Assembly: GCF_900143515.1 (NCBI RefSeq)
Contig: NZ_FSQT01000002.1
Span: forward strand, 1,985,501 to 2,049,500
From: Micromonospora cremea
Lineage (GTDB): Bacteria > Actinomycetota > Actinomycetes > Mycobacteriales > Micromonosporaceae
Reading direction: 5' to 3'
Length of the DNA: 64,000 nt
The position numbers and the translations under genes were made by a program. The notes below the pieces were generated by a model. It made no database searches, had not been told where the DNA came from, and saw only the letters and a program-made list of their open reading frames with translations. Positions 35,904 through 39,106 of the stretch are shown piece by piece; the first letter of the stretch is position 1, and every line of letters starts with the position of its first letter.

Positions 35904-37582
35904 GCACCGCCGCCGGGCCGGTCCGCGCCGTTTCCGCCCGGCACTTCCTGCGGCTGAAGCTGCGGGTGATGGGCAACAGCTTCCGGGGCCGGGGCTGGCG
36001 GATCGCGTTGTTCATCGGCAGTGCGCTGCTCGGGCTCTGGTTCGCCGCCAGCGGTTTCTTCCTCTTCGCCGTGCCGGGCACGACGGAGAACGGCCGGTAC
36101 GCGCTGCTGGTCGCGGCGGGCGGTGGCGGGCTGCTGGTGCTCGGCTGGCTGCTGCTGCCGCTGGTCTTCTTCGGGGTCGACGAGACGCTGGACCCGGCCC
36201 GGTTCGCGCTGCTGCCGCTGCCGCGCCGCACGCTGGTCGTCGGCCTGTTCACCGCGGCCCTGGTCAGCGTGCCGGTGCTGACCGTGCTGATCGCGACATC
36301 CGGGCTGGTGCTCACCGCCTGGGCGCTGGGTGGCTGGTCCGCCGGCCTGGTGGCCGCCGTCGGCGTGGTCGCCGGGCTGCTGCTCTGCGTGGCCGCCAGC
36401 CGGGCGGTGACCAGCGCCTTCGCCAGCATGCTGCGGTCGCGTCGGGTGCGTGACCTGGCGGCCGTCCTGCTGGCGGTGGCCGCCGCGCTGCTCGGCCCGT
36501 TGCAGATCTTCGGCCTCGCCGCGCTGCGGGAGACGGACTGGGACCGGCTGACCGGGGTGGCGACCGTGATCGGCTGGACGCCGTTCGGCGCACCGTGGAC
36601 CGCCGGCATCGACGTGGCCCAGGGGCGGGTCTGGGCCGCTCCGATCAAGCTGCTGATCACGGTGGTCGCGCTCGGTGCGCTGTTGGCCTGGTGGTCGCGG
36701 TCGCTGGAGTCGGCGATGGTGGGAGCGGTCAGCGCTGGCCCGACCCCGGTCCGGCGGGGCGCCATCGGTGGCCCGGTGGCCCAACTGTTTCCCCGGGTCA
36801 CCGGCTGGTTCCGTCGGGACCGGTTCGGTGCGCTGGTCGCCCGGGAATCCCGCTACTGGTGGCGGGACGCCCGCCGCCGGGCCAATCTGATCACGGTCGC
36901 GGTGGTCGGCATCTTCGTGCCGGTGATGGTCAACCTCGGTGGCGCGGGCTTCGCGGCCGAGGGCGAGCAGGGCATGACGATGAGTGCCAATGACAGCTCG
37001 CCGGTCCTGGTCACCCTCTCCATGCTCTTCGTCGGTGTGCTCGCTTCGGTCACCCTGGCCAATCAGTTCGGCTTCGACGGCAGCGCGTACGCCGCGAACG
37101 TGGTGGCCGGGGTGCCCGGCCGGGTGGAGCTGCGCGCGCGGATGACGGCCTTCTCGTTGTACGTGATGCCGATGCTGACGGTCGTCGCGGTGGTGCTGTC
37201 GCTGGTGCTCGGCCATCCGAGCTGGATCGGGCTGACCGCTGGCAGCCTGGCCGCCACCTACGGTGCGGGGCTGGCGGTGAACAGCTTCGTCTCGGTGCTC
37301 GGGGCGTACTCGCTGCCGGAGACGAGCAACCCGTTCGCGATGAACACCGGCGCTGGCATGGCGAAGAGCCTGCTCACCCTGCTGGCCATGGTCGTCTCGG
37401 CGGTCGTCGCGGTGCCGATGGTGGTGGCCGCGGCGCTGCTCGATGACGCCTGGCTCTGGTTGGCCCTGCCGGTCGGCGTGGCGTACGGGTTGGGCGCGGC
37501 GCTGCTGGGCGCGTACCTGGCCGGCGACGTGCTGGACCGGCGGCAGCCGGAGCTGCTGGTCACGGTCACCCCGCGCCGCTGA
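35888..37582 (+). CDS. ABC transporter permease (ABC-2-like)
   Basis: 564 residues from GTG 35888. About 12 TM helices, with clusters at 30-175 and 340-560 and a cytoplasmic loop near 240-300 (WFRRDRFGALVARESRYWWRDARRRAN). Pairs with the ATPase encoded immediately upstream. GTG 35888 is preferred because GAGGAG is 5 nt upstream; GTG 35900 (4-nt overlap) is the alternative. Such transporters often export lipids, peptides or antibiotics, but nothing here decides. Confidence 0.8.
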   Translation: MALPVSTAAGPVRAVSARHFLRLKLRVMGNSFRGRGWRIALFIGSALLGLWFAASGFFLFAVPGTTENGRYALLVAAGGGGLLVLGWLLLPLVFFGVDETLDPARFALLPLPRRTLVVGLFTAALVSVPVLTVLIATSGLVLTAWALGGWSAGLVAAVGVVAGLLLCVAASRAVTSAFASMLRSRRVRDLAAVLLAVAAALLGPLQIFGLAALRETDWDRLTGVATVIGWTPFGAPWTAGIDVAQGRVWAAPIKLLITVVALGALLAWWSRSLESAMVGAVSAGPTPVRRGAIGGPVAQLFPRVTGWFRRDRFGALVARESRYWWRDARRRANLITVAVVGIFVPVMVNLGGAGFAAEGEQGMTMSANDSSPVLVTLSMLFVGVLASVTLANQFGFDGSAYAANVVAGVPGRVELRARMTAFSLYVMPMLTVVAVVLSLVLGHPSWIGLTAGSLAATYGAGLAVNSFVSVLGAYSLPETSNPFAMNTGAGMAKSLLTLLAMVVSAVVAVPMVVAAALLDDAWLWLALPVGVAYGLGAALLGAYLAGDVLDRRQPELLVTVTPRR

Positions 37583-37694
37583 GGCCGACCCGCTGACCTC
37601 GGCGCCGATCCGGTCGGCGAGGGCGTCCGGCGAACCCCGGCGAGCAGCCGCGACCGCCCGTTATGGTGCGATCAGCCGGAACCGGGGGGTCAAC

Positions 37695-38592
37695 ATGGGC
37701 GGGCGCACCCGCTACCGCAGCACGATCGTCGACGGACTCACGATCTTCTACCGGGAGTCCGGCGCACGGGATGCGCCGGTGCTGCTGCTCCTGCACGGCT
37801 TCCCATCCTCGTCGCGAATGTTCGAACCGCTGCTCGACCGGCTCGCCGACCAGTTCCGGCTGATCGCACCCGACTACCCGGGGTTCGGGCACAGCGACGC
37901 CCCGGCACCCGACAGCTTCCCGTACACGTTCGACCGGATCGCCGCCACGATGTCGCGCTTCGCCCGTCGGCGCCGAGCACTACCTGCTCTACATGCAGGA
38001 CTACGGAGGCCCGGTGGGGTTCCGGATGGCCCTCGCCGATCCGGGTCGACTGAACGGGATCGTGGTGCAGAACGCCGTCGCCCACGACACGGGGCTGGGA
38101 CCGCTCTGGGCGACCCGTCGTGCCTTCTGGCGGGACCGGGCCGGGCACGAGGCCGCGATTCGGGAGAACATCCTCTCGCTGGCGTCGATCCGTGTCCGGC
38201 ACGTCGGCGACGATCCCGACCCCGAGCGGTACGACCCGGACCTGTGGGCCGACGAGCACGCCTTCCTCAGTCGCCCCGGCGAAATCGACATCCAGCTGGA
38301 CCTGATGTACGACTACCGGACCAACGTCGCCTCGTACCCGTCCTGGCAGGAGTGGCTGCGCCGTACCCAGCCGCCGCTGCTGGTCGTCTGGGGCCGGTAC
38401 GACACGTCCTTCGAGATCACCGAGCCGGCGGCGTACCGGTCCGACGTCCCGGAGGCGGAGGTGCACCTGCTCGACGGCGGGCATTTCGTGCTCGACACCC
38501 GGGCCGACGAGGCGGCCGCCCTGGTCCGGACCTTCGCGGGTCGGGTCCTCGGAGCGGGGCGGTGGGGTCACAATGTTTCACGTGAATCATGA
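37695..38592 (+). pseudogene. Alpha/beta hydrolase (haloalkane dehalogenase-like), broken by a frameshift
   Basis: The N-terminal half (ATG 37695, GGGGGG 5 nt upstream) reads LLLLHGFPSSSRMFEPLLDRLADQFRLIAPDYPGFGHS, the oxyanion-hole and core of an alpha/beta hydrolase. At about 37955-37975 the frame must shift by one extra base (or two missing bases): the matching continuation GAEHYLLYMQDYGGPVGFRMA is in the next frame and runs to 38592, with nucleophile Asp in QDYGG and the catalytic His in DGGHFVLDT. Either a real pseudogene or a single-base sequencing error. Everything else is intact, so an error is plausible. Confidence 0.8.
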
Positions 38593-39106
38593 GCCGGGCG
38601 CCGAGATCCACCACACCGACCCGTTCGCGGTGCCGACCGGGCAACGGTCGCCGGTCCGCCGGCTGCGTGGTCGGCTCGCCGCGCCGGTGACCCTCTGGAC
38701 CGCACCGGGCCCGGCCGGGCTGACCGTCTCGTCCACTCTGGTCGCCGAGGGGGAGCCCGACCGGCTGCTCGGGCTGATCGACGCGGAGTCCGATCTCTGG
38801 GCGGCGATCGAGGAGGCGGGCCGGTTCGCGGTCGCGCCGCTCGGCCCGCCGCACCGGCAGCTCGCCGACCGGTTCGCCGGCCTCTTTCCCGCTCCCGGTG
38901 GGCTCTTCGCCACCGGGGCATGGACCGACACCCCGTACGGGCCGGTCCCGGCGGACGCCGGCGGATGGGTCGGCTGCCGACTGGACACCGCCCGCGAGTA
39001 CGGCTGGGCGCTGCTGGTGGAGGCCACGATCGAGGCGGTCGACCTGGCCGAGGAGGCCAGCCCGCTGCTGCACTACCGCGGTCGCTACCACGAGCTGCCC
39101 GGCTGA
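38573..39106 (+). CDS. Flavin-reductase-like FMN-binding split-barrel protein
   Basis: 177 residues. Residues about 28-140 follow the flavin reductase pattern: RLAAPVTLWTAPGPAGLTVSSTLVAEGEPDRLLGLID, DLWAAIEEAGRFAVAPLGPPHRQLADRFAGLFP. Typical of NAD(P)H:flavin reductase components that bind FMN in a split barrel. It overlaps the hydrolase remnant by 20 nt. Its first codons (MFHVNHE) are produced by the parS-like sequence, so the N-terminus is constrained by that DNA site. Confidence 0.75.
   Translation: MFHVNHEPGAEIHHTDPFAVPTGQRSPVRRLRGRLAAPVTLWTAPGPAGLTVSSTLVAEGEPDRLLGLIDAESDLWAAIEEAGRFAVAPLGPPHRQLADRFAGLFPAPGGLFATGAWTDTPYGPVPADAGGWVGCRLDTAREYGWALLVEATIEAVDLAEEASPLLHYRGRYHELPG
38574..38589. 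promoter_or_regulatory. parS-like ParB binding site
   Basis: TGTTTCACGTGAATCA matches the bacterial parS consensus TGTTTCACGTGAAACA at 15 of 16 positions (mismatch at position 14). It overlaps the first codons of the flavin-reductase-like gene. parS sites cluster near the replication origin in actinobacteria. Confidence 0.75.

Follow-up and report, generated by a model that had tools for sequence, protein, structure and literature searches.

Whether chromosomal ParB is a real gene regulator or mainly a segregation factor is a question touched by the locus described here. In Pseudomonas aeruginosa, ParB is reported to repress promoters at parS3 and parS4 (PMC5521831) and to bind sites carrying two substitutions as well as single half-sites (PMC10419367). 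Degenerate parS sites of Corynebacterium glutamicum (at least three mismatches) are reported to have recruited no ParB (PMC7083940), and a review describes the transcriptome changes upon ParB loss as mostly minor (PMC7022226). We analysed a parS-like site at the start of a flavin-reductase gene of Micromonospora cremea, within a stretch of 64,000 nucleotides called here the window (C2:1985501-2049500 of a genome of 7,759,667 bases in 2 contigs, searched as a whole). No paper describing a parS-like site on this gene was evident by title in the searched literature, with subscription journals mostly outside its coverage.

A parS-like 16-mer outside the origin cluster

The 16-mer TGTTTCACGTGAATCA occupies positions 38574-38589 of the + strand. 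As a sequence-only reading of the window had claimed, it is one base off the parS consensus TGTTTCACGTGAAACA, with T instead of A at position 14. It is the sole parS match at up to three mismatches within the 64-kb window, for a mean of 0.03 in shuffled sequences. Under a first-order Markov model of the window, 0.0045 16-mers with exactly one mismatch are expected per 7.76-Mb genome. A chance match was rejected on this expectation (~0.004 one-mismatch sites per genome) and on the presence of ATGTTYCACGTGAATC in nearly all genomes of the genus (see below). Compared with what defines a parS, TGTTTCACGTGAATCA is a 16-bp inverted repeat close to TGTTTCACGTGAAACA and it is origin-proximal, 98.9 kb from dnaA; the bases conserved in bona fide sites are kept at positions 2-13 and 15 and not at position 14. 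The features used below are the following:

38574..38589, + strand: parS-like 16-mer TGTTTCACGTGAATCA, one mismatch to TGTTTCACGTGAAACA; 63/80 orthologous loci, 158/160 genus genomes by DNA pattern
38573..39106, + strand: flavin reductase ORF (PF01613), 177 aa from ATG or 174 aa from GTG
38569..38574, + strand: putative -10 hexamer CACAAT (NANNNT), 7 nt before GTG, kept while the flank upstream diverged
38582..38584, + strand: preferred start GTG, Val4 of the listed ORF and centre of the palindrome, aligned with the start codon of site-less orthologues
38573..38575, + strand: alternative start ATG, chosen by the ORF finder and some database entries
37993..38592, + strand: 3′ part of a frame-broken alpha/beta-hydrolase gene, whose last codons overlap the parS-like site and read ...NVSRES, with the stop (38590-38592) directly after

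The product of the downstream gene matches the Flavin_Reduct profile PF01613 with an E-value of 1.2e-24 and 87.6 bits for a cut-off of 27; the nearest named orthologous locus is that of Micromonospora sp. U21 (98% protein identity). The upstream alpha/beta-hydrolase gene (37443-38592 of the window) is split in M. cremea into two overlapping ORFs. Only its 3′ part is found in L013, and L014 carries an uninterrupted version of 311 aa; the gene seems to be decaying in the M. cremea lineage. In 27 of the 80 orthologous loci (L015, L053 and 25 others), a small upstream ORF (MRPLWRC..CGAPWPC...) is in frame into the flavin reductase. Databases list fused small-ORF/flavin-reductase proteins of ~250 aa, which are either a real fusion or an artefact of gene calling.

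The genome-wide search at up to two mismatches, plotted relative to dnaA, was the check suggested with the first reading. It gave 8 places in the whole genome and none for the reversed control pattern. Five carry the perfect TTTCACGTGAAA core and lie at C2:2113671-2117630, around parB (C2:2115602); the three others are at C2:2024074 (the window site), 2151174 and 2794954, the last without CACGTG. Since all five perfect cores (C2:2113673-2117628) are 5-9 kb from dnaA (C2:2122943), the clustering of parS at the origin is real. The statement that parS sites cluster around oriC thus holds for the perfect cores, and the window site does lie in the origin region, but ~90 kb outside this tight five-member cluster. 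When one mismatch was allowed in the core, 10 places were found in the genome, 5 of them imperfect for 1.0 expected by chance: the window site, one located 28 kb from dnaA on the opposite side, and three elsewhere. Across the 15 genomes measured, that of M. cremea among them, the distance between dnaA and the orthologous flavin-reductase gene ranges from 88 to 117 kb.

The near-match at 28 kb from dnaA, CGTTGCACGTGAAACA at C2:2151174, is flanked on either side by inverted-repeat arms recognised by eye, GGCATCGA...TCGATGCC. A second TTTCACGTGAAT core, bare, is present at C2:3939852, about 1.8 Mb from dnaA. The 12-mer at C1:2763011 encodes FHVN within an acyl-CoA-ligase-like ORF (by eye) and was set aside as a coding coincidence, an example of coding sequence mimicking parS far from the origin. 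Two neighbouring ParB-like genes are located at C2:3219089-3220278, about 1.1 Mb from chromosomal parB. In another genus, the longer palindrome AATGTTTCACGTGAAACATT (matches on both strands, 3 bases apart) occurs at least once in 21 of 22 genomes of 3.3-6.2 Mb (all but G159) among the matches listed, which suggests a genus-specific extended parS.

Conservation of the block and start of the flavin-reductase gene

Of 118 orthologous Micromonosporaceae loci, the best 80 were compared; 63 of these carry the site at the same place, a count biased towards the site because the loci were retrieved partly with the peptide MFHVNHEP. The cores are TTTCACGTGAAT (56 loci), TTCCACGTGAAT (5) and TTTCCCGTGAAA (2). 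Duplicate loci were counted once (L137 = L059; L156 = L082) and, the sequences being related, the counts are not independent. The 17 loci where the site is absent come from Asanoa, Plantactinospora, Phytohabitans, Catenuloplanes, Actinoplanes and relatives, and from Micromonospora thermarum. Scans of genus and family genomes count DNA patterns and are free of the MFHVNHEP bias, location at the flavin-reductase gene being verified only for the loci read. Within the genus, 158 genomes out of 160 contain ATGTTYCACGTGAATC; we infer from the identical site coordinates of G247 and L053 that this genus includes Salinispora. The two genomes lacking ATGTTYCACGTGAATC are G194, which has TGTTTCCCGTGAAACA, and G328, which is the M. 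thermarum locus and has a left half one base shorter. The related pattern AATGTTYCMCGTGAAWC occurs in 227 of 354 family genomes among the matches listed, sites elsewhere included.

Alignment of the site-bearing loci gave a mean information of 1.90 bits over the 16-mer and 1.89 bits over the -10 hexamer, compared to 0.98 at the third codon positions of the gene and 0.51 over the upstream stretch -70 to -8 (63 columns); columns -7 to -5 (0.92-1.88 bits) belong neither to the site or hexamer nor to the upstream mean. When species are compared, the sequence upstream of the block is thus close to random, at 0.51 bits per column, and the neighbouring ORF varies: it encodes a hydrolase, or is a small ORF containing cysteines, or resembles a membrane protein and ends in TPRR, with 27 of the 80 loci unclassified. 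High information in the block, next to a diverged upstream sequence and a changing neighbour, shows that the block is conserved as DNA. The element is real, and its DNA sequence has been preserved almost throughout the genus.

Codon usage in the ATG frame was also compared. Codon 2 is TTT in 58 of the 63 site-bearing loci and codon 5 is AAT in 61 of them; in the gene body, TTT accounts for 19 of 334 Phe codons and AAT for 1 of 14 Asn codons. An explanation by codon choice alone was set aside, as the left half is probably non-coding and ORFs from upstream run through the block in different frames. Mapped on the gene tree, presence or absence of the site requires five changes, and well-supported branches make four of these unavoidable. 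L059 and L088 are two losses nested within site-bearing groups, although not all of the branches that place them there are starred. Loss of the site through movement of the gene away from the origin was not supported: L071, L081 and L083, the three site-less loci measured, lie 105-117 kb from dnaA.

The architecture of the block is promoter-like. In all 63 site-bearing loci, a hexamer (CACAAT in 53, CAGAAT in 10) is placed 7 nt before the GTG, within the 5-8 nt at which the -10 hexamer of a leaderless gene precedes its start codon. L136 (CATGAT) and L139 (CACTAT) differ in the middle of the hexamer but retain the A of place 2 and the T of place 6. In 14 of the 17 site-less loci, a NANNNT motif, whose frequency in the window is 0.018 per position, stands exactly 6 nt before the start aligned with Val4; of the remaining three, the distance is 8 nt in L089 and, judged by eye, 7 nt in L088, and L081 has no such hexamer. 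No conserved -35 was seen by eye or in the alignment of loci, and the -10 box begins with C, not T. For Actinoplanes sp. SE50/110, a spacing of 6.2 +/- 1.1 nt between -10 and transcription start is reported, with 1179 leaderless among 4228 primary starts and -10 hexamers that conserve A at place 2 (90.8%) and T at place 6 (85.7%) better than T at place 1 (63.6%) (PMC7682106). TA-like signals about 12 bp before the start are reported to mark leaderless genes (PMC3160421).

The M. thermarum locus (L059) has an intact reading frame from the GTG, but not from the ATG, which is out of frame. The hexamer spacing, the alignment of orthologue starts, the M. thermarum frame and the Actinoplanes promoter data together make GTG at 38582 the preferred start, and it is more likely the true start of a leaderless gene. 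The ATG is nevertheless retained in 63/63 site-bearing loci, which the GTG model does not need. A G-rich stretch that could act as a weak ribosome-binding site precedes the ATG in many loci; none was evident by eye in L054, L072, L076 and L078. The GTG is probably at or adjoining the transcription start and the left half-site probably lies in the promoter spacer rather than in coding sequence. The 16-mer would then most likely cover the promoter spacer, the transcription start and the start codon. The earlier placement of the site inside codons 1-6 is true of the ATG-started ORF of 177 aa, but the GTG is the better-supported start. The proposal that the N-terminus is the price of keeping the site depended on that probably wrong start codon and is not retained, the left half being more likely promoter spacer.

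Could the block be conserved merely as an AT-rich promoter and translation start, with RNA polymerase as the sole DNA-binding protein? AT-rich bases are expected near a leaderless start, and -10 box and start are kept in most site-less orthologues too. However, these orthologues keep them without TTTCAC in the spacer, which implies that the promoter does not need TTTCAC, and the full block is nonetheless kept in 158/160 genus genomes. We regard this explanation as very unlikely.

A fixed mismatch at position 14

To compare the site with true parS, we used the parAB regions of 33 genomes (out of 38), retaining CACGTG sites with at least one TTTCAC half. This sample comprises 177 sites and 341 oriented halves, the 164 sites with both halves perfect being counted twice. 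Position 14 of the halves is A in 340/341 and T in one, and position 12 has 329 A and 12 G. Positions 2 and 15 show no variation at all, and positions 1 and 16 vary freely. The lone T14 is found in Winogradskya humida (L135:1313), so that T14 can occur inside a parAB cluster. At the flavin-reductase gene, position 14 is T in 61 of 63 loci. The two exceptions, both from Winogradskya, have A14 together with C at position 7, as do genomes G080 and G194 (four in all). The mismatch is therefore a property of the site, not noise.

A perfect core was seen in none of the 86 distinct flavin-reductase loci read (the 80 named plus L136, L138, L139, L157, L162 and L163). Among 20 places fetched, 4 are at the flavin-reductase gene (by protein motif), none of them perfect, and all 11 places with a perfect core are elsewhere. 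ATGTTTCACGTGAAAC occurs somewhere in 19 of 160 genus genomes, each of which also has the T14 form, among the matches listed. The T14 and C7 forms were each met off the flavin-reductase gene at two of the 20 places (L151, L161; L158, L159); these variants are not private to this promoter. The imperfect forms kept at the gene are thus T14, or C7 with A14, and the TTCCAC form (Salinispora and some others) represents a second, parS-like change. This change, T5 to C, is found in 5/63 flavin-reductase sites, its equivalent in 12/341 oriented cluster halves, and G2 and C15 are invariant in both sets. Substitutions at the flavin-reductase site thus partly follow those of true parS sites.

These data bear on two other explanations. 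The site might be a remote parS, a second ParB/SMC loading point ~90 kb from the cluster serving segregation or folding, with an incidental position on a promoter. Distance and coding context would be compatible with it: parS sites of Streptomyces venezuelae are reported within about 200 kb of oriC (PMC4852455), parS1 of C. glutamicum is reported inside a coding sequence (PMC7083940), one cluster parS of M. cremea itself lies within the 5′ part of the longest ParA-like ORF, and, among the matches listed, near-parS sites are found at 17-74 kb from dnaA in some other members of the Micromonosporaceae. Yet a perfect core would be expected, as in both halves of 164/177 cluster sites, and it is found in 0/86 flavin-reductase loci; moreover, in the site-bearing loci read the site is always exactly on the flavin-reductase promoter. 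A remote parS is for these reasons unlikely.

Alternatively, TGTTTCACGTGAATCA might be the operator of an unrelated transcription factor, a palindrome resembling parS by coincidence. T14, fixed at the gene and nearly absent from cluster parS, would be explained, and repressor operators typically overlie the -10 box and start. There is, however, no sign of a regulon: a search of the whole genome at up to two mismatches from the exact 16-mer gave, besides the site, two cluster parS sites and nothing else. The site agrees with parS in its CACGTG core, in G2/C15 and in the T5 to C change, and the alternative core TTTCCCGTGAAA carries a perfect parS right half. We give this explanation a low probability.

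A possible ParB operator on a leaderless promoter

The chromosomal ParB of M. cremea (337 aa) matches solved Spo0J/ParB chains through the helix-turn-helix (best 6sdk, E-value 8.5e-50). R173 and G201 are reported as parS-contacting residues that differ between ParB and Noc, and Q162, G170, K171, S172, N178 and R204 as DNA contacts common to both (Jalal et al., PMC7383237). By eye, counting from the GRSR motif, M. cremea ParB keeps R173, G170, S172, N178, G201 and R204; K171 is replaced by Arg and Q162 by His. As the specificity residues are kept, a preference for parS is expected, with one unusual contact residue (His for Q162). Recognition of the flavin-reductase site by ParB is likely.

The best explanation at present, to which we give nearly an even chance, is a conserved but weakened ParB operator on the flavin-reductase promoter. 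The sequence of the site, its position, its conservation as DNA, its fixed mismatch and the promoter-like architecture are observations; that ParB binds there, that it does so weakly, and that it represses the gene and couples it to segregation is what we infer. A ParB-binding site of sub-consensus strength, conserved across the core promoter and GTG of a leaderless gene ~100 kb from oriC, would be bound by chromosomal ParB as a CTP-loaded clamp more weakly and more briefly than the cluster sites. Bound ParB would cover the transcription start and compete with RNA polymerase; direct repression is the mechanism that we favour. Expression of the gene would stay low as long as free ParB abounds and rise once ParB is drawn into segregation complexes. 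A more specific form, in which parS is kept imperfect over the leaderless start as a tuned operator and the free-ParB pool (segregation or sporulation state) sets expression of the redox enzyme, is possible but doubtful.

Several observations count against an operator of this kind. They include the His in place of Q162 in ParB, the degenerate C. glutamicum sites reported to have recruited no ParB, the T14 and C7 forms met elsewhere, the C-initial -10 box with no conserved -35 seen, and the retained ATG. The site is absent from 17/80 orthologous loci despite a similar dnaA distance in the three measured (L071, L081, L083), and the fixed T14, where A is present in 340/341 cluster halves, may mean that ParB binding is poor or absent. 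T14 could also be held by the Asn codon rather than by tuned affinity; as it stands, the fixed base fits a weakened ParB site, an Asn codon forbidding A, or a different protein. The original suggestion that ParB loading could interfere with transcription of the gene remains a sensible one.

A near-parS over the likely promoter and start of an unrelated enzyme gene, in nearly all genomes of the genus, suggests that ParB may also act as a switch for this gene. With a genus-wide site on a defined promoter and a fixed suboptimal base, the question of ParB as a regulator becomes testable by one base change. The placement also shows that GTGAA at a leaderless start already makes up half of a parS, so that such starts might be recruited into the ParB network.

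Chromosomal parS (ParABS, TGTTTCACGTGAAACA) is the closest known element: the flavin-reductase site shares the 16-bp palindrome centred on CACGTG, one perfect half, the origin region and a ParB close to solved Spo0J/ParB. It differs by its location ~90 kb outside the cluster, its fixed non-consensus base 14 and its position across a likely promoter and start codon. Like parS3/parS4 of P. aeruginosa, it is a (predicted) ParB site adjoining a promoter, and P. aeruginosa ParB is reported to tolerate two substitutions and to bind half-parS (PMC10419367); those sites are intergenic or scattered, whereas the M. cremea site is on a presumed transcription start and is kept genus-wide. KorB of IncP plasmids is a ParB-family protein reported as a transcriptional regulator (PMC7022226), but it is a plasmid protein with its own operator, whereas chromosomal ParB is proposed here. 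Finally, in leaderless actinobacterial genes, reported to carry TANNNT ~12 bp before the start (PMC3160421), the hexamer is placed as in the flavin-reductase gene, where the distance from its first base to the start is 12 nt for most orthologues lacking the site and 13 nt for M. cremea; the M. cremea promoter differs by the C at the first base of the hexamer and by a spacer that holds a parS half-site.
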